Positions 13,308 to 48,143 of a DNA stretch of 49,841 bases are shown here, piece by piece (the first letter of the stretch is position 1; each line of letters begins with the position of its first letter). Position numbers and translations under genes: made by a program. The DNA is from Fibrobacterota bacterium (GTDB taxonomy: Bacteria; Fibrobacterota; Fibrobacteria; UBA11236), in contig JAHFCH010000019.1 of assembly GCA_023249635.1 (NCBI GenBank), positions 1 to 49,841 on the forward strand. Direction: 5' to 3'. Below the pieces are notes generated by a model. It was not told the origin of the DNA, ran no database searches, and worked only from the letters and a program-made list of their open reading frames with translations.

Positions 13308-13397
13308 AGAGAGTTGTCCGAGCGGTTTAAGGTACATGCTTGGAAAGCATGTTGGCCCTAACCGGCCACGGGGGTTCGAATCCCCCACTCTCTGCCA
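13308..13397 (+). tRNA. tRNA-Ser (anticodon GGA)
   Basis: A 90-base class II tRNA: acceptor AGAGAGT paired with ACTCTCT, anticodon stem CATGC/GCATG around loop TTGGAAA (anticodon GGA), a long variable arm with GGCC/GGCC stem, T arm GGGGGTTCGAATCCCCC, discriminator G and encoded CCA (13395-13397). Confidence 0.96.
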
Positions 13398-23228: not shown

Positions 23229-24407
23229 TTGGACCCCTTCTTCGAACTAACGGCAACAAAAACCGGTTCCGGGTCGCCCGATTCCCGGGCGCCCGGTTCC
23301 CGGGCCCGTGCCGGAATCCTGCATACCTCCCATGGAGACATCCCCACCCCGGTTTTCATGCCTGTCGGAACGGCGGGCGCGGTCAAAGCCGTATCGCCAC
23401 GCGGGGTCAAGGAAGCGGGCGCGAAGATCATCCTGGGGAATACCTACCATTTGTACCTGCGCCCGGGTTGCGACCTGATAGATAAGGCCGGAGGCCTGCA
23501 TCGCTTCGCCTCGTGGGACGGGGCCATGCTCACCGATTCCGGCGGCTTCCAGGTGTGGAGTCTGGAAACCCTGCGGACCATCACCGAAGCAGGCGTGGAA
23601 TTCCGATCGCATATCGACGGTTCCAAGCATCTTTTCACCGCCGAGTCGGTGATGGAGGCCCAAAGGAAGATCGGGGCCGACATCATCATGGCCTTCGACG
23701 AATGTACCCCCTACCCTTCCACGCCGGAACAAGCCAAGCATTCCCTGGCCTTGACCCAGCGCTGGACCGAACGGGCCTTGGAATGGCTCGGGAAGAATCC
23801 CGAACGCCACGGATATCGCCAGCATTTCTTCGGCATCGTGCAAGGCGGGATGCACTTGGATGCGCGCGCGCGCGCCATCGAGCATATCGCCGCCATGGAT
23901 ACCCCGGGCATTGCGCTGGGGGGCCTAAGCGTAGGCGAGCCCGCGGAGATCATGTATGAGGTGGCGGGCCATTGCACGGCCCTGATGCCGCCCGGGAAAC
24001 CCCGTTACGTAATGGGCGTAGGCACGCCCTCCAATCTGTTGACCCTGGTAGGACTGGGCGTGGACATGTTCGATTGCGTACTACCGACGCGCAATGCGCG
24101 CAACGGCACGGTATTCACCTGGGACGGGCCGTTACATTACAAAGCCGCCCGCCATGCCCAAGAACTGGATCAACCGCTCGATCGCCGGTGTTCCTGCTAT
24201 GCGTGCAAGAATTTCTCCCGGGCCTACCTGCGCCATCTATTCGTGGCCGGGGAAATCCTGGCCCTGGAGCTGGCCACCTTGCACAGCCTGCATTTCTACC
24301 AGGATCTGATGCGGGAAGCCCGCGCGCATATTGTCGCGGGGGATTACGATACGTGGAGCGCGGAGTTGTTGGCGCGCTGGGCGACGCCGGAGGTGCGAGG
24401 CGCGTGA
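23229..24407 (+). CDS. tgt: tRNA-guanine transglycosylase
   Basis: This enzyme exchanges guanine-34 of tRNAs with GUN anticodons for preQ1 in queuosine synthesis. About 392 residues. Visible landmarks: HTSHGDIPTPVFMPVGTAG at the N-terminus, the catalytic-region Asp in LTDSGGFQVWSL, AFDECTPYPS, the G-G-L-S-V-G-E loop, DMFDCVLPTRNARNG with the second Asp, and the zinc site CSCYACKNFSRAYLRHLF (Cys, Cys, Cys, His). No ATG is available. The TTG at 23229 gives an N-terminus LDPFFELTATK that matches the family; an earlier TTG at 23193 overlaps the kinase. The start is therefore provisional. No queA or queC-F gene is in the window. Confidence 0.94.
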   Translation: MDPFFELTATKTGSGSPDSRAPGSRARAGILHTSHGDIPTPVFMPVGTAGAVKAVSPRGVKEAGAKIILGNTYHLYLRPGCDLIDKAGGLHRFASWDGAMLTDSGGFQVWSLETLRTITEAGVEFRSHIDGSKHLFTAESVMEAQRKIGADIIMAFDECTPYPSTPEQAKHSLALTQRWTERALEWLGKNPERHGYRQHFFGIVQGGMHLDARARAIEHIAAMDTPGIALGGLSVGEPAEIMYEVAGHCTALMPPGKPRYVMGVGTPSNLLTLVGLGVDMFDCVLPTRNARNGTVFTWDGPLHYKAARHAQELDQPLDRRCSCYACKNFSRAYLRHLFVAGEILALELATLHSLHFYQDLMREARAHIVAGDYDTWSAELLARWATPEVRGA

Positions 24408-24427
24408 GGGATCCGGGAGAAAGAGAG

Positions 24428-24482
24428 GTTTAAGGTCTAAGGTTTAGGAAATGCATTCCACCTTAGACCTTAGACCTTTTTT
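24428..24482 (+). repeat. GGTYTAA heptad repeat forming a terminator between tgt and cheR
   Basis: Three heptamers (GGTTTAA, GGTCTAA, GGTTTAG, 24428-24448) and two complementary TTAGACC units (24464-24477) flank a short spacer. AAGGTCTAAGGT (24433-24444) pairs perfectly with ACCTTAGACCTT (24461-24472), and five T residues follow at 24478-24482. It terminates tgt and, less strongly, the converging chemotaxis operon. A related element occurs at 47143-47207. Confidence 0.8.
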
Positions 24483-24492
24483 CCAATCCGTC

Positions 24493-25317
24493 CTACTTCG
24501 CCACCGGCCTGAAACATCCCGACACGTCGAATTCCGAGCGCCGGAAATAATCCGATAAGTTGAATGTGCTCTCCGCCGCCCCCAGGAAAAGGAATCCTCC
24601 GGGTTGCAGCAAACGATGCGCACGCGCCAAGATCGAGCGCTTATCCGCGTCATCCATATAGATGAGAACGTTGCGCAGGAAAATCACGTCCATGCGCGGG
24701 AACACCGGCCATTCCAGGCACAGATTCAGGGTCCAGAACCGGACCATGCGCCTTACCTCTTCGCGCAGGCGCCAGCCCTGGCCTTCGGCCGCGAAGTATT
24801 TGCGGGCCAGTTCGGGGGATAAACCCCGATTCATCTCAACCTGGGTGTAAAGTCCGGCCCGGGCGCGATCCAAAATGCCATTGGCGATATCGGTGGCGAA
24901 AATTTGCACCGTCCAATCGGCGAGTTGGGGAAAGCCTTCCCGTAGGGTGAGCGCGATGCTGTAGGGCTCCTGCCCCGTGGCGCAGGCCGCCGACCAGATG
25001 TTGAGGCTGCGGTCACCGCGCTTGGCCGCCATCAGGGCCGGCATGGCCTTGTCGCGCAGGGCTTCGAAGGGCGCGCCATCGCGGAAGAAATAGGTTTCAT
25101 TGGTGGTCATCGCCTCCACCGCTTCCGCCACCAGGGTTTCCGGCGCGCCTTGGCGCAGATAGGCGATGAACTCCCCGACCCCGCGCATTCCCATGCGCTC
25201 ATAGATGCGGCCGAACCGGGCTTCCACCAGGTAACCCTTATCCTTATCCAGACGGATGCCCGTGCGCTTGTGCACGAGCTCCGCAACGAAGGCGAGATCG
25301 ATTTCGCTAAGCGCCAT
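24493..25317 (-). CDS. cheR: Chemotaxis protein methyltransferase CheR
   Basis: A 274-residue S-adenosylmethionine-dependent enzyme that methylates glutamates of chemoreceptors for adaptation. N-terminal CheR domain: DLAFVAELVHKRTGIRLDKD, then TTNETYFFRD. Methyltransferase domain: LNIWSAACATGQEPYSIAL (SAM-binding), FATDIANGILDRARAGLY, RFWTLNLCLEWP and FLRNVLIYMD. It is the last gene of the leftward che operon and ends at the bidirectional heptad terminator. The open frame extends 17 codons further upstream, but the ATG at 25317 (MALSEIDLAF) fits the family start and overlaps the cheB end by 11 bases. No C-terminal TPR extension is present. Confidence 0.94.
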   Translation of the reverse strand: MALSEIDLAFVAELVHKRTGIRLDKDKGYLVEARFGRIYERMGMRGVGEFIAYLRQGAPETLVAEAVEAMTTNETYFFRDGAPFEALRDKAMPALMAAKRGDRSLNIWSAACATGQEPYSIALTLREGFPQLADWTVQIFATDIANGILDRARAGLYTQVEMNRGLSPELARKYFAAEGQGWRLREEVRRMVRFWTLNLCLEWPVFPRMDVIFLRNVLIYMDDADKRSILARAHRLLQPGGFLFLGAAESTFNLSDYFRRSEFDVSGCFRPVAK

Positions 25318-39430: not shown

Positions 39431-41347
39431 TCAATTGAGGCGGCGGATCTGGATGCGGCGGTTGCTGGTCCGGCCTTGGGCCGTACGATTGGGCGCCATG
39501 GGTTGGGAGGCCCCGAAGCCCACAGGCTTCAGACGGCGGGCTTCAATACCCCGGTTGACCAGATACTCCTTCACGGCCTCGGCGCGCGCTTGGGAAAGCT
39601 TCTTGGCATTAGGGCCCGCACGATCATCCAAGTGACCCTGGATCTCAATTTCGGTTCCCGGGTAGGCGAACAGGCGCGAAGCCAGACCATCCAGGATCAG
39701 GAAGGAAGACTGGAGCAATTCGGCGCTGCCGGTCTGGAACTCCACGCCTCCCAGTACCGCATCCCGGAGCGGTTCCGGCTTCTCGTCCGGGCAACCGTCT
39801 TCATCCTGGAAGAAGTTGGTGATCTCGGCCTCGCGCGGGCATTTGTCGCGCCGATCGGGTATGCCGTCCCCATCGGTATCGATTTCCGGGCAACCGTCTT
39901 CGTCTTCGATACCGTTGCGGTTCTCCGCTTGGCGGGGGCATTTGTCCAGGGCATCGGGGATGCCGTCCTTGTCATCATCGAGATCCGGGCAACCATCCTC
40001 GTCCAGGAAGCCATCCCTGTCTTCGGGATCGTTGGGGCAGCGGTCGAGTGAATCCAGGAATCCGTCATGATCGTTATCCAACTCAGGGCAACCATCGCGG
40101 TCTTCGAAGCCGTCATGATCCTCAGCGGTATAAGGGCAAGCATCAACGGCATCCAAAACGCCGTCTCCGTCATTGTCGGGATCAGGGCACCCGTCATCAT
40201 CCTGGAATCCATCACGGTCTTCCGGAATCGTTGGGCATATGTCACGGCCATCGAGTACGCCATCGTGATCAATGTCCCGCCCGAGCGGAAATCCCTGCCA
40301 GGAAACCTGGAGGAACCATGAAAGGGAGGGTTCCAAGCGGTACTGCACATCGCGGACCAGTCCGTTCTCGAGAGTAACGCGCAGCGGCAGATAAGGATTC
40401 ATGCCCCCCGGGGCGATCTGGCCGCCCGCTTGCATGGTGAAACCGCCTCCTGCCATCCAGCTCAAACCGGTGGCGAATACCGTCGATCGGCCGATTGGGG
40501 CTCCCAAAGTCGCGGGATCGGCGGCCAGCCGCTTATGGCGCATCTCCCCTTCCAGACGCAGGTTTTCCATCAGGAAGACTTCCAATGCGACGGAGGCCGC
40601 CAAAATGCCCAGTGGGCTATCCGTATCCGCGGCGAAAGTACGGTCCATGGATGCGTTGGCATGTAATTCCAGGTGCGGGCCTTCCATGGCATCGGAAAAA
40701 TCGATGGATGTCCCGGCCCCTAATCCCGCGCGTGGGGCATCCATGCCAATGCTATGGGAAACGTGATCGGGAAATCGGTTGGAAGCCGGATGGAAGGCCA
40801 ATTGCTTGGGCAGCCTGGGTCCGAACCGCGAGGAAGTCGGCAGCGAGCCGTTCGCGATGATGCTGAAGGACACGAACGGGAGATCGAATGGGAGCAGGTA
40901 TTTCACCACGGCGGATCCATCGCCTACGCCCCAGGTATCCGGCGGGCTTTCCACCCCCGCGAGGTATTCGTAATAGATGGGCATGTAAATCGAACCGTCG
41001 AACCCGAAACCCAATCCGGCCGCGAGGAAAATGCGGGTGGTGTAGGATTTGGCAACGTCCACGGGTAGAACGGTTGAATCGGGCACTTGGTAAAACGCCT
41101 CATCCTTGATCATTTCCAGGCCGCTGTAGAAATGGCCGGAGGCCCCGAGCAACAATCCGCCGGCTTTCAAGCGATGGGAGGAATGCGTCTCGAATACCCC
41201 CGGGAGACCGAACTCATCGGGCATGGTAAAGGACATGCCCGGAGTCTGAGCCGTAGCGGAGGTGGAAATTCCCAGCAGCAAGAACACGAAAAACACAAGC
41301 ATCGGGATGATTATAGGGCTATGGCCCGATATGATGCAAGCCGCCAT
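39431..41347 (-). CDS. OmpA-family protein with thrombospondin type-3 repeats
   Basis: A 638-residue envelope protein. An N-terminal hydrophobic signal region (PMLVFFVFLLLGISTSATAQ) is followed by about 310 residues with beta-barrel-like composition. Near residues 355-525 lies a tandem array of five thrombospondin type-3 calcium-binding units (D-x-D-x-D-G-x-x-D...C-P-x...E-D-x-D-G-x-x-D-x-D-G-C-P), for example DNDGDGVLDAVDACP and EDRDGFLDEDGCPDLDDD. The C-terminal OmpA domain binds peptidoglycan: QTGSAELLQSSFLIL, EIQGHLDDRAGPNAKKLSQ and GASQPMAPNRTAQGRTSNRR. Such proteins tether the outer membrane to the cell wall. ATG 41347 and ATG 41302 (starting MLVFF) are both possible; ribosome-binding sites are weak for both. 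Confidence 0.88.
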   Translation of the reverse strand: MAACIISGHSPIIIPMLVFFVFLLLGISTSATAQTPGMSFTMPDEFGLPGVFETHSSHRLKAGGLLLGASGHFYSGLEMIKDEAFYQVPDSTVLPVDVAKSYTTRIFLAAGLGFGFDGSIYMPIYYEYLAGVESPPDTWGVGDGSAVVKYLLPFDLPFVSFSIIANGSLPTSSRFGPRLPKQLAFHPASNRFPDHVSHSIGMDAPRAGLGAGTSIDFSDAMEGPHLELHANASMDRTFAADTDSPLGILAASVALEVFLMENLRLEGEMRHKRLAADPATLGAPIGRSTVFATGLSWMAGGGFTMQAGGQIAPGGMNPYLPLRVTLENGLVRDVQYRLEPSLSWFLQVSWQGFPLGRDIDHDGVLDGRDICPTIPEDRDGFQDDDGCPDPDNDGDGVLDAVDACPYTAEDHDGFEDRDGCPELDNDHDGFLDSLDRCPNDPEDRDGFLDEDGCPDLDDDKDGIPDALDKCPRQAENRNGIEDEDGCPEIDTDGDGIPDRRDKCPREAEITNFFQDEDGCPDEKPEPLRDAVLGGVEFQTGSAELLQSSFLILDGLASRLFAYPGTEIEIQGHLDDRAGPNAKKLSQARAEAVKEYLVNRGIEARRLKPVGFGASQPMAPNRTAQGRTSNRRIQIRRLN

Positions 41348-44881: not shown

Positions 44882-46333
44882 CTACGCGTCCAGATGCTTC
44901 TTGAGGATTTGATTCACCTGCTCGGGCCCGGCCTTGCCGCCGCTCAGCTTCATCACCTGGCCGACGAAAAAGCCCATCAGTTTTACCTTGCCGCCCTTGT
45001 AGGCCACGACGGAATCCTGATTCTTATCAAGCACTTCCTTGATGAAAGCTTCGAGGGCGCCGGTATCGTTGATGACCACGAGTCCCTTGTCTTTGACGAT
45101 GAGCCCAGGGGCTTTGCCTTCGGCCAGCATGTCCTCGAAAACGGCTTTGGCGATCTTGCCCGAAATCGTCCCGGCAAGGATCAAGTTGATCAATTCGCCA
45201 AGATGCTCGGGAGTGAACTTGAGGTCCCCCACTCCTATGGACTGTTCTTTCACGACGCGTAGTACCTCACCCATGACCCAGTTGGACGCTTGCTTCTTGT
45301 CGGCCGTGACCGCGCAGACGCGTTCGTAGAACTGGGAGACGGGCTTGTCCGAAGTGAGCACGGCGGCGTCATAGGGCGGGATGCCGTATTCATCGACATA
45401 GCGCTTGCGGCGGGCCTCGGGAAGTTCCGGCAGCGCCTTCTGGATCTCTTCCACATTGCGCCAATCCACGTTGATGCGGACCAGATCGGGCTCGGGAAAA
45501 TAGCGGTAATCGTGGGCTTCTTCCTTGGTACGCGTAGCCACGGTAACCCCGCGGTTCACGTCCCAACGTTTCGTCTGCTTGGGGATGGTCTCACCCTTGT
45601 CCAGCAACATGGCCTGCAATTCGATTTCCGATTCCAGCGCCTTCTCGATATTGTGGAAGGAATTCATGTTCTTCAGCTCGACGCGGTTGCCGAAGGGGGC
45701 GAACTCATCCTTGCGCAGGGAGACATTGGCGTCGCAACGCAGGTTTCCGCGCTCCATATTGGCGTCGCAGATCTCGAGGTATTCCAAAATCTGCTTAAGC
45801 TTTTCCAGGTATAGGTAAGCCTGGCGGGGAGTGCGCAAATCGGGATCGGATACGATTTCAATCAACGGTGTGCCGCAACGATTGGCGTCGAATAGGGAAT
45901 CGGCCACGGTCAGATCGTGGATGAGCTTGCCCGCGTCCTCTTCCATGTGGATGCGGGTGAGACCGATGCGCATGCGCGAACCATCGTCCAGATCGATATC
46001 GAGGTGGCCCTTGGTGCAGATGGGCCGGTCGTACAAGGCATTCTCGCCCTGTTGGGTGATCTGGTAGCCTTTGGGAAGATCCGGGTAGAAGTAGTTCTTG
46101 CGCGTCCACATCGCCTTGGGATCGATACGCGCCCCGCAGGCCAGGCCCATCTTTATGGCGTACTCGACCGCCTTGGCATTGGGCATGGGAAGGGTTCCGG
46201 GCATGCCGAGGCAGACCGGACACACCAGGGTGTTGGGTTCGGCGCCGAACTCCACCTTGCATCCGCAGAACATCTTGGTGCGCGTGGAAAGCTGGGCATG
46301 GACTTCGAGACCGATAACGACGCTGTAGGGCAT
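44882..46333 (-). CDS. gatB: Asp/Glu-tRNA amidotransferase subunit B
   Basis: A 483-residue GatB, the tRNA-binding, kinase-like subunit of GatCAB, which converts Glu-tRNA(Gln) or Asp-tRNA(Asn) to the amidated form. Landmarks: IGLEVHAQLSTRTKMFCGC with the zinc-binding Cys, CPVCLGMPGTLPMPN, LPKGYQITQ, RIHMEEDAGKLIHD, PLIEIVSDPD, RCDANVSLR, and the C-terminal tail domain near residues 380-480 (LAEGKAPGLIVKDKGLVVIN). Length is normal. gatA and gatC are not in the window. The presence of a tRNA-Gln gene does not conflict with a role in making Gln-tRNA. It diverges from trmB. Confidence 0.96.
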   Translation of the reverse strand: MPYSVVIGLEVHAQLSTRTKMFCGCKVEFGAEPNTLVCPVCLGMPGTLPMPNAKAVEYAIKMGLACGARIDPKAMWTRKNYFYPDLPKGYQITQQGENALYDRPICTKGHLDIDLDDGSRMRIGLTRIHMEEDAGKLIHDLTVADSLFDANRCGTPLIEIVSDPDLRTPRQAYLYLEKLKQILEYLEICDANMERGNLRCDANVSLRKDEFAPFGNRVELKNMNSFHNIEKALESEIELQAMLLDKGETIPKQTKRWDVNRGVTVATRTKEEAHDYRYFPEPDLVRINVDWRNVEEIQKALPELPEARRKRYVDEYGIPPYDAAVLTSDKPVSQFYERVCAVTADKKQASNWVMGEVLRVVKEQSIGVGDLKFTPEHLGELINLILAGTISGKIAKAVFEDMLAEGKAPGLIVKDKGLVVINDTGALEAFIKEVLDKNQDSVVAYKGGKVKLMGFFVGQVMKLSGGKAGPEQVNQILKKHLDA

Positions 46334-46426
46334 CGCCCAAAGGTAAAAAAGCCAAAGGCGCTATCCCAGCGGATAAGGCCATCCGGGTTGACGCAGGCGG
46401 CGATTCTTCCCATTTTGCCAGTCCGT

Positions 46427-47149
46427 ATGTCCCTGCCCGCCGGTTTGACCTCGTACGAATTCCTCCGCAGCTTGGAGCCCTCCACCGACCTGGCGCGGTA
46501 CTGGCATCTGAGCATCCGCAAGCAGGAAGATGGCCGCCATCCCATGCTCGCGCCTGACGGTATCCCGGTTCCCACCCCCATCTCCCTGGAAGCCTTTTTC
46601 GGGAAGCCTGGGCCTATCGAGATCGAGATCGGTTGCGGCAAGGGCGGATTCCTGGTCGAGTACTGCGAAAAGCATCCGGAACTGCCCTTGGTGGGCCTGG
46701 AATGGGAAAATGAGATCGCTTGCCAAGCCGCCCGCCGTTTGCAGAAGCGGACCCATCTCCCCCACGCCCGAGTGCTGCTGGGCGATGCCTTCTACTTCTT
46801 CCGGGATTTCCTTCCGGACTCCTGCGTGGGCGCCTTCCACATGTATTTCCCCGATCCCTGGCCCAAGAAGCGCCATGTCAAGAACCGCTTGATGGGACCG
46901 CGCTTCATGGAGCAGGTGTTACGCACGGCTCTGCCGGATGCCCCTTTCTTCTGGGGCACCGATCATGCCGAGTACAATGCCGAAGCCCAGGCGGTCTTCG
47001 CGTCCTTGCCTTGGCTGGAGATGGAGATTCCCAACGCCGAGCCCACCGAGGGAATCATGACGAACTTCGAGAAGAAGTACCGGGCGCAGGGAAAGCCTAT
47101 CTACCGGTGCAAGTTGAGAGTGAAAAAGCCGGGAGTGGAAAAGGTCTAA
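46427..47149 (+). CDS. trmB: tRNA (guanine-N7-)-methyltransferase
   Basis: A 240-residue TrmB that methylates guanine-46 of tRNAs using S-adenosylmethionine. Landmarks: IEIEIGCGKGGFLVEYCEKH (SAM-binding), LVGLEWENEIACQAARR, HMYFPDPWPKKRHVKNRL (active-site motif), and WGTDHAEYNAEAQAVF. A short N-terminal extension of about 60 residues precedes the SAM motif. The ATG at 46427 is chosen; an open frame further upstream is a shadow through gatB. No good ribosome-binding site is visible. It ends 70 bases before the convergent SprT-like gene, with the second heptad repeat in between. Confidence 0.94.
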   Translation: MSLPAGLTSYEFLRSLEPSTDLARYWHLSIRKQEDGRHPMLAPDGIPVPTPISLEAFFGKPGPIEIEIGCGKGGFLVEYCEKHPELPLVGLEWENEIACQAARRLQKRTHLPHARVLLGDAFYFFRDFLPDSCVGAFHMYFPDPWPKKRHVKNRLMGPRFMEQVLRTALPDAPFFWGTDHAEYNAEAQAVFASLPWLEMEIPNAEPTEGIMTNFEKKYRAQGKPIYRCKLRVKKPGVEKV

Positions 47150-47207
47150 GGTTTAAGGTTTAAGGTGAAAGGATGCCTCGAATTTGTATTCCCTTAGACC
47201 TTAAAGC
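47143..47207 (+). repeat. GGTYTAA heptad repeat between trmB and the SprT-like gene
   Basis: Four heptamers in tandem (GGTCTAA, GGTTTAA, GGTTTAA, GGTGAAA; 47143-47170) start seven bases before the trmB stop region and are mirrored by TTAGACC at 47194-47200. AAGGTCTAAGG (47141-47151) can pair perfectly with CCTTAGACCTT (47192-47202) across a 40-base loop. It has the same motif as the element at 24428-24482 and also sits between convergent genes. Confidence 0.75.
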
Positions 47208-47222: not shown

Positions 47223-48143
47223 TTATCCCCTTCCCCGCATCATCCTCCGCAAAGCCCTCGGCAATCCCTCCCTGTGCCACTCCCTCCAGACCCGGTAATG
47301 GTCGTACTCCCGCTCCCGTTTCCGGAAATCCCCTCCATGGACCACGCGCCGGCCGCCTTCGCGGCGGGGAGGGATGGCGATATGCAGGCATTCGTGGTAG
47401 ACCACACCGCCCAGTATCTCCGGAGTTACCTCGGGGCAATCGTAACCGCGGCTGATGGTGAGCAGATGGTACGGACGCCCCTCGGCGTCCTGGGCGATGG
47501 TATGCGTGGAAAGCCCGCCCAGGCGCGCGGCCCAGCTGATGCGGGCCTGTAGGGTTCCGCCGAAGTAGCGCGCGTTCACCGCGGAGAGGACGCTGTCGAG
47601 ATCATGGCACTCGCCCTGCGGCCGCAGACGCGCCAGCTTGCGCCCATCCCGGGCCGCGCGGCGTTTGGCCGCCGGGGTCATGGCTCCACCGGATTGGGCT
47701 TGGGCGCCTCCGCGAAGATGGTCGCGAATGGTGGTTTCCAATTCCAGGCGGCGCGCGCGTCGGACCGCATCCTTATGCTTCCGTTGACTGGCCAACAAGG
47801 CCCATTCCAGCAAGGCCGCTTGGCATTCCTGCGGGGCTTCGGCAAGCAGGGCGGGGATTTCCAGGCGTAAGGCTTCCCGGCGCCGCAGCCAGGTTACCCG
47901 CCAACTTTCGTGGAGGCGGGGTCGCACCGCGACTTCGATATGGGCGTAAGGGCCTACGCAAAGATGGGCGAATGCGGACCGCGGTAACCCGAGAGTTACC
48001 TTGGCCGCCGGTGCCGCCTGCGTGCGCGCGGGAGCCGTCGGTACGGGTGGATCGGGTGGATCAAAAAGGGAAAGCTGCCGCAGGAAGGCGGCCACGCCGG
48101 CGGTAATGCGCCTGACCGGGGCCGTGGCGCGACCCGGCGTCAT
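47223..48143 (-). CDS. SprT-like zinc metalloprotein
   Basis: A 306-residue protein with an SprT-like C-terminal domain. The zinc site is the HExxH-type motif in GVVYHECLHIAIPP near residue 250, followed by VVHGGDFRKRERE with a third candidate His ligand. Upstream, NARYFGGTLQARISWAARLG matches the SprT N-x-x-x-F-x-G-x-L pattern. Such domains occur in proteases that act on DNA-protein crosslinks and in many uncharacterised bacterial proteins. The N-terminal 190 residues are Arg/Ala/Pro-rich with no recognised domain and no signal peptide. Its start overlaps the secretin stop by four bases (ATGA), so it is translated from the end of the secretin message. Confidence 0.75.
   Translation of the reverse strand: MTPGRATAPVRRITAGVAAFLRQLSLFDPPDPPVPTAPARTQAAPAAKVTLGLPRSAFAHLCVGPYAHIEVAVRPRLHESWRVTWLRRREALRLEIPALLAEAPQECQAALLEWALLASQRKHKDAVRRARRLELETTIRDHLRGGAQAQSGGAMTPAAKRRAARDGRKLARLRPQGECHDLDSVLSAVNARYFGGTLQARISWAARLGGLSTHTIAQDAEGRPYHLLTISRGYDCPEVTPEILGGVVYHECLHIAIPPRREGGRRVVHGGDFRKREREYDHYRVWREWHREGLPRALRRMMRGRG

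Follow-up and report, generated by a model that had tools for sequence, protein, structure and literature searches.

Heptad-armed inverted repeats behind stop codons in a Fibrobacterota genome and their counterparts with other heptads in related species

REP/BIME elements and REPINs are palindromic intergenic repeats of gene 3' ends and of the gaps between co-transcribed genes, and are rarely found in divergent settings. DNA uptake words in inverted pairs also serve as terminators. In the Neisseriaceae, the uptake word is short and comes in dialects that differ between related species (available part of PMC3630211); uptake sequences number hundreds to thousands per genome (available part of PMC2346458). 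Heptameric repeats occur here and there among bacteria, and no explanation of their 7-base length is generally accepted. As retold in the accessible sections of MacGregor (2015, PMC4679880), Mrazek et al. (2007) found that heptamers outnumber all other long simple sequence repeats in most of the genomes they surveyed. The same sections describe the TAACTGA heptamers of Beggiatoaceae, Cyanobacteria and Bacteroidetes as abundant intergenic repeats that for the most part run in direct orientation and lie shortly before start codons; a single case is inverted. According to the available part of Rehm et al. (2015, PMC4692102), the GGGNATC heptamers of Xanthomonas and Nostoc are spread genome-wide, mostly intergenic, near stop codons and in few divergent settings. 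In Xanthomonas they form 70–75 inverted pairs, and 83% of the repeats have G-rich repeats at the same place in the related species as well; they were explained as G-quadruplex formers, with GGG tracts and a preference for four units.

The GGTYTAA repeats examined here, two copies of which lie in the 49,841-nt stretch of DNA that we call the window, resemble the Xanthomonas GGGNATC repeats, as the available text portrays them, in their 7-base units, their place near stop codons, the scarcity of divergent settings and the inverted pairs. They differ in that their units hold GG only and do not provide four GGG tracts, and in that a sister species, G004, has another heptad at shared sites; that heptad, GGGTWHA, does hold GGG. 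With the TAACTGA repeats, judging from the accessible sections, they have intergenic abundance and a scattered phylogenetic distribution in common, but they form inverted pairs after stop codons. Like REP/BIME and REPIN, they are palindromic, intergenic, located at gene 3' ends and rarely divergent, but the genome lacks the Y1 transposase of RAYT-associated repeats, the arms are tandem heptads of variable number, and the loops differ. As in the Neisseriaceae dialects, to the extent that the available text describes them, the word differs between related species; unlike the uptake sequences of that text, the heptads stand in tandem and the copies are far fewer (~103, plus 74 of a second family, CGTCGGG). 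Heptads near stop codons, inverted pairs among them, were already known from Xanthomonas; the novelty here lies in a heptad "dialect" that has switched genome-wide at gene junctions which are themselves conserved. An exchange of heptads at junctions shared by sister species is not reported in the available parts of PMC4692102 and PMC4679880, and searches of the freely accessible published literature listed no account of heptads being switched between species at orthologous junctions.

Two elements in the window and the family in the genome

A preliminary description of the window had noted GGTYTAA repeats at two intergenic sites, roughly 24,428–24,482 and 47,143–47,207, and had read them as a bidirectional terminator between convergent genes. 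The repeats are present at both sites, with the correction that element 1 starts one base earlier, at 24,427. Its left arm, on the plus strand at 24,427–24,447, consists of GGTTTAA (24,427–24,433), GGTCTAA (24,434–24,440) and GGTTTAG (24,441–24,447); after the loop GAAATGCATTCCA (24,448–24,460), the right arm CCTTAGACCTTAGACC (24,461–24,476, minus strand) pairs with it. Six T residues stand directly 3' of the stem (24,477–24,482), on the plus strand only, as an intrinsic-terminator-like tail for the tgt transcript. A consensus terminator scan, with a loop limit of 3–8 bases, returned no terminator-like site. The tgt gene (tRNA-guanine transglycosylase; 23,229–24,407, plus strand, TIGR00430) ends 19 nt upstream of the element, and a cheR-like gene (24,493–25,317, minus strand; PRK10611 match below the cut-off) converges on it from the other side.

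Element 2 has a left arm (47,143–47,163, plus strand) composed of GGTCTAA (47,143–47,149), GGTTTAA (47,150–47,156) and GGTTTAA (47,157–47,163), a loop at 47,164–47,191, and a right arm (47,192–47,206, minus strand) in which CCTTAGACC (47,192–47,200) is followed by a mutated heptad, TTAAAG. The TAA of its first heptad is the stop codon of an ORF at 45,917–47,149 (plus strand) whose C-terminal half is trmB-like (TIGR00091, below the cut-off). The first part of this ORF overlaps a minus-strand ORF, and its true start therefore lies further in. The convergent neighbour (47,223–48,143, minus strand), previously called SprT-like, matched no NCBIfam family. By gene calls and family matches, both elements are placed between convergent genes, as had been claimed. 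GGTYTAAGG occurs nine times in the window compared with 0.46 expected, and no shuffle reaches nine; one of the nine (at 13,324) sits within a tRNA-Ser gene and is unrelated to the elements. Both hairpins fold better than shuffles (z −8.6/−5.4 for element 1 and −2.4/−3.3 for element 2). The window also holds, at 39,786–40,004, a period-99 tandem repeat of 2.2 copies within a long minus-strand ORF.

Could these be the only copies? The genome of the window (6.75 Mb in 341 contigs) contains 337 matches to GGTYTAAGGTYTAAGG, 174 on one strand and 163 on the other, and none to the reversed control. In a 1.02-Mb sample of this genome, most contigs of which were chosen for carrying matches, we observed 46 clusters of the 9-base core, 42 with at least two cores and four with a single core, the tRNA-Ser copy being one of the four; the 298 kb of the sample chosen independently of matches (C106–C125) held seven elements. 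Each of the 42 multi-core elements is an inverted pair with the (+)n arm first and the (−)n arm second, giving (GGTYTAA)n-loop-(TTARACC)n. Scaled by matches, this gives ~103 elements genome-wide. The dispersed, intergenic, hairpin-forming repeat family suspected from the two sites is thus borne out: it has about 100 copies and not two, and with genes called by a codon-model script, none of the 42 multi-heptad elements lies inside a gene, so that copies are not equally common there.

The commonest arm is GGTTTAA-GGTCTAA-GGTTTAA-GG. Within this one genome, arms range from 1 to 9 perfect heptads, the two arms are unequal in length in 24 of the 42 elements, and the loops mostly differ between copies. 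Twelve of the 42 have an 18-base core, GGTCCCGTAGGCCCGGTC, in common within 5 mismatches, and all nine places within 2 mismatches of it in the 1.02 Mb are inside GGTYTAA elements, which indicates that part of the family spread by the copying of a larger unit. The remaining elements do not share this core, and an interior shared between copies, as in a MITE, is therefore not a property of the family. On one contig of the genome (G000:C108, L079; 4,506–15,093), four elements fall in a stretch of 11 kb, and two of these follow genes that we take to be sufB and sufS.

By setting, 16 and 14 of the 42 elements lie between co-directional genes of either strand, 11 between convergent genes and one between divergent genes. 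Convergent settings are enriched (11/42 compared with 9.6% of intergenic length, p = 0.0016), and divergent settings are depleted (1/42 compared with 27.6%, p = 2 × 10^−5). The proposed link with convergent gene ends consequently holds as an enrichment but not as a general rule, as 30 of the 42 are co-directional. Co-directional elements are often in tight operons, the distance from stop codon to element is mostly 5–38 nt, and for about half of the co-directional copies the following start codon is at most 40 nt away, so that a promoter would hardly fit in between. A GACCAC leader motif before start codons was found for 7 of 38 genes with heptads at most 180 nt upstream and for 5 of 690 others; it was not taken as a part of the element, because a comparable native leader stands at the gyrB-like site of relatives that have no element there.

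A second family, (CGTCGGG)n-loop-(CCCGACG)n, has 14 elements in the 1.02-Mb sample and an estimated ~74 in the 6.75 Mb. Altogether, the sample has 49 intergenic period-7 arrays and one in coding sequence, compared with at most two intergenic arrays of any other period that is not a multiple of 7. This is the excess of 7-base tandem units at many loci that characterizes heptameric prokaryotic long simple sequence repeats. After removal of both families, the remaining intergenic DNA had no global period-7 signal. In the relative G002 (C16, 56,799–57,283), one pair of CGTCGGG arms is ~430 bases apart, compared with the usual 30–150.

Heptads at the gene junctions of related species

GGTYTAAGGTYTAAGG had no match in 60 relatives, five of the same genus among them. 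The sister species G004 (joined with the species of the window at a support of 0.999 in a protein tree of 1546 concatenated residues) thus has none of the GGTYTAA word; it has 230 GGGTWHA pairs, a word of which G015, from the same class, has 11 pairs and the genome of the window and the remaining four members of the genus have none. AAATTGM pairs number 60 in G003, 14 in G001, 10 in G002, 5 in G005 and 1 in G010, and none in the genome of the window or G004. CGTCGGGCGTCGGGCG, of the CGTCGGG family, has 143 matches in the genome of the window, 283 in G002 and 9 in G003; the search gave none for its other 58 genomes. The architecture is the same with each word, GGGTWHA in G004, AAATTGM in G003 and CGTCGGG in G002, and the AT-rich heptad arrays of G003 and G001 are likewise inverted pairs.

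We sought 10 of the 42 element sites, picked for recognisable genes, in five relatives; the gene names used here are our reading of the sequences. By a fixed rule, period-7 arrays were found at 13 of the 38 relative junctions where both neighbours are kept, compared with 1 of 114 junctions that lack an element in the genome of the window (Fisher 3 × 10^−8); these 114 came from fetched contigs, some of which, in G002 and G003, had been chosen for CGTCGGG matches. Arrays of other periods (5, 6, 8–11) numbered 0 or 1 at the same 38 junctions. Two degenerate arrays at pheS (G001, G003) are visible by eye and were missed by the rule. Among relatives with kept junctions, none had an array at rnhA (0/2), ruvC (0/2) or sufS (0/5), G004 had none at sufS, glmM, rnhA or ruvC, and G005 had none at any tested junction, all of which speaks against conservation of the sites. 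The gap between sufS and the next gene is 152 with the element in the genome of the window and −1, −1, 15, −1 and −1 in the five relatives, a clear gain by the genome of the window.

The reciprocal comparison started from the first 20 listed G004 elements, three of which were already known. All of the other 17 have the (+)n(−)n order; eight are in minus, seven in plus, two in convergent and none in divergent settings, and one overlaps a predicted ORF. Eleven of the 17 sites were sought in the genome of the window, where eight carry GGTYTAA, one carries CGTCGGG and two are without an element. Furthermore, at 13 sites shared by the two species, alignments of the 45 bases that follow the element are better than those of mismatched pairs (3 of 5000 permutations), whereas the loops show no such advantage (553 of 5000). 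These results indicate that the position was inherited and that the arms and loop were changed throughout the genome.

The surroundings of trmB differ among the relatives. In G003 (L157) and G001 (L158), AT-rich heptad arms flank an apparent trmB promoter in the gatB–trmB region, where the genes are divergent; the gatB–trmB intergenic regions of the genome of the window, G004 and G005 contain no arrays. In the 3' region of trmB, the genome of the window and G004 carry heptad elements. The same region in G001 (C48, L158) has a different inverted repeat with the ends GGCCTGTTAAGAAATAA and TTATTTCTTAACAGGCC, like a small inverted-repeat insertion.

Stem-loops, terminators and competing explanations

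The GGTYTAA hairpins are stable (median −40 kcal/mol), and z is below −2 for 99% of the strands. U-tracts follow the stem on both strands in 2 of the 42 elements, on one strand in 22 and on neither in 18. The single-strand rate resembles that of element-free controls (co-directional, 20/60 sense and 8/60 antisense; convergent, 4/22 and 6/22), and there is no asymmetry between sense and antisense, with a T content after the arms of 3.93 and 3.93. Set against the same controls, U-tracts on both strands are the rule among CGTCGGG elements, with 8 of the 14 in the genome of the window and 12 of 16 in relatives. Most GGTYTAA copies are therefore not textbook bidirectional intrinsic terminators, and the reading as a bidirectional terminator rarely fits this family, but the CGTCGGG form looks like a true one. 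Compensatory change between the GGTYTAA arms is absent (C/T states agree at 57 of 93 positions, compared with 67% in shuffles), and together with the unequal arms this means that RNA pairing is not evidently under selection. As a class, the elements may be described as post-stop stem-loops, of which the CGTCGGG form would terminate transcription both ways and the GGTYTAA form would mostly attenuate, protect or process.

The explanation that we favour, with about even confidence, is a family of ~100 heptad-armed palindromes after stop codons that act as RNA stem-loops, each species acquiring its own heptad dialect by copying and slippage. New elements would have arisen by copying into gene-end positions, and slippage would lengthen or shorten their arms by 7 bases at a time. 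If recombination or repeated copying kept the copies of one genome alike, this homogenization would let each species drift to its own dialect. Behind the stop codon, the stem-loops might partly end or attenuate transcription, or protect or process the mRNA 3' end between cistrons, and termination at operon junctions would be incomplete. In the sister species, many of these junctions also bear an element, but its heptad is a different one across the whole genome. Against an RNA role, the arms in G003 and G001 flank the divergent gatB–trmB promoter region, so that both arms would not share one short 3' UTR. No enzyme able to copy the element was found. Two candidate origins were rejected: the Y1 transposase of the RAYT/REP system (PF01797) had three matches among six genomes, all in G001, and none in the genome of the window or G002–G005, and reverse transcriptase (PF00078) had a single match in the six, in an ORF of the genome of the window that presumably codes for a group II intron protein. 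As none of the other species with heptads has a PF00078 match, a reverse transcriptase cannot explain the class.

Could the elements be neutral or selfish instead, functionless insertions with slippage that are tolerated only at gene junctions, as REP-like or MITE-like repeats? Insertion into formerly tight junctions fits this, as the gap is 121 in the genome of the window and −4 in G002 (C48), 115 and 20 in G005 (C27) and, at a CGTCGGG junction, 123 and −4 in G005 (C27), and so do the unalignable loops and the asymmetric core that some of the copies share. Yet several species occupy the same junctions (13/38 against 1/114), and the Y1/RAYT transposase is missing from five of the six genomes, including that of the window, which makes this somewhat improbable. 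A further possibility, which we likewise regard as somewhat improbable, is that different heptad elements were inserted independently into hot-spot junctions of each species, without descent and change of heptad. The loops that do not align between the genome of the window and G004, the two shared junctions at which the former and G002 bear different families (C10: GGTYTAA and CGTCGGG) and the array-free junctions of G005 all speak for it, but site sharing with the sister species is high (8/11 in the GGTYTAA dialect) and the flanks beside the elements are orthologous.

DNA-level recognition is rather unlikely in our estimation. Here, a protein reading 7-base steps, with a part in nucleoid structure, segregation, topology or uptake, would bind the heptads and co-evolve with the dialect, and the 3'-end position would merely mark places that tolerate such DNA. 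That the heptads at shared places differ between species is consistent with such a protein, which, reading each heptad, would need neither covarying nor equal arms, and the arms around the divergent promoter region of G003 and G001 agree with it as well. However, a stop codon precedes nearly all copies by no more than a few tens of bases, the analysis turned up no candidate protein, and the dialects span AT-rich (AAATTGM) to GC-rich (CGTCGGG) words; for uptake, ~100 GGTYTAA and 74 CGTCGGG elements per 6.75 Mb are far fewer than the copy numbers in the available part of PMC2346458. An artefact of assembly or chance low-complexity sequence is refuted and has virtually no probability left, as the reversed control and the shuffles gave none, many flanks are unique, and the same architecture recurs in several separate genomes.

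Beyond the copying and slippage that we favour, it is conceivable, but doubtful, that the dialects are a genus-wide phenomenon in which the junctions stay fixed through speciation and the word is rewritten at ~100 sites as a trans-acting factor changes its word. Such a factor might be a protein that binds DNA or RNA and reads heptads, or an activity that copies in 7-base steps; the letters would then not be conserved, unlike the 7-base period and the inverted arrangement. The swap of dialects at the same operon junctions is a natural experiment that sets period, inverted layout and post-stop place against letters, and it gives the hunt for a trans-acting cause a definite object. A further lesson is how tight operon junctions (neighbours of pheS, infB, sufB, sufS, fliQ and glmM) acquire intercistronic hairpins.

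Heptad arrays in other lineages

Outside the phylum, 17 stretches from cyanobacteria, Bacteroidota, Zixibacteria and Proteobacteria (L137–L153) contain the same 23-base heptad array, and some of these arrays are inverted pairs (L144, L145, L150 and L152). In L150, a hairpin resembling a terminator is flanked by the array, which is also the arrangement of the CGTCGGG family. Three tandem heptads were also found in 15 viral contigs.
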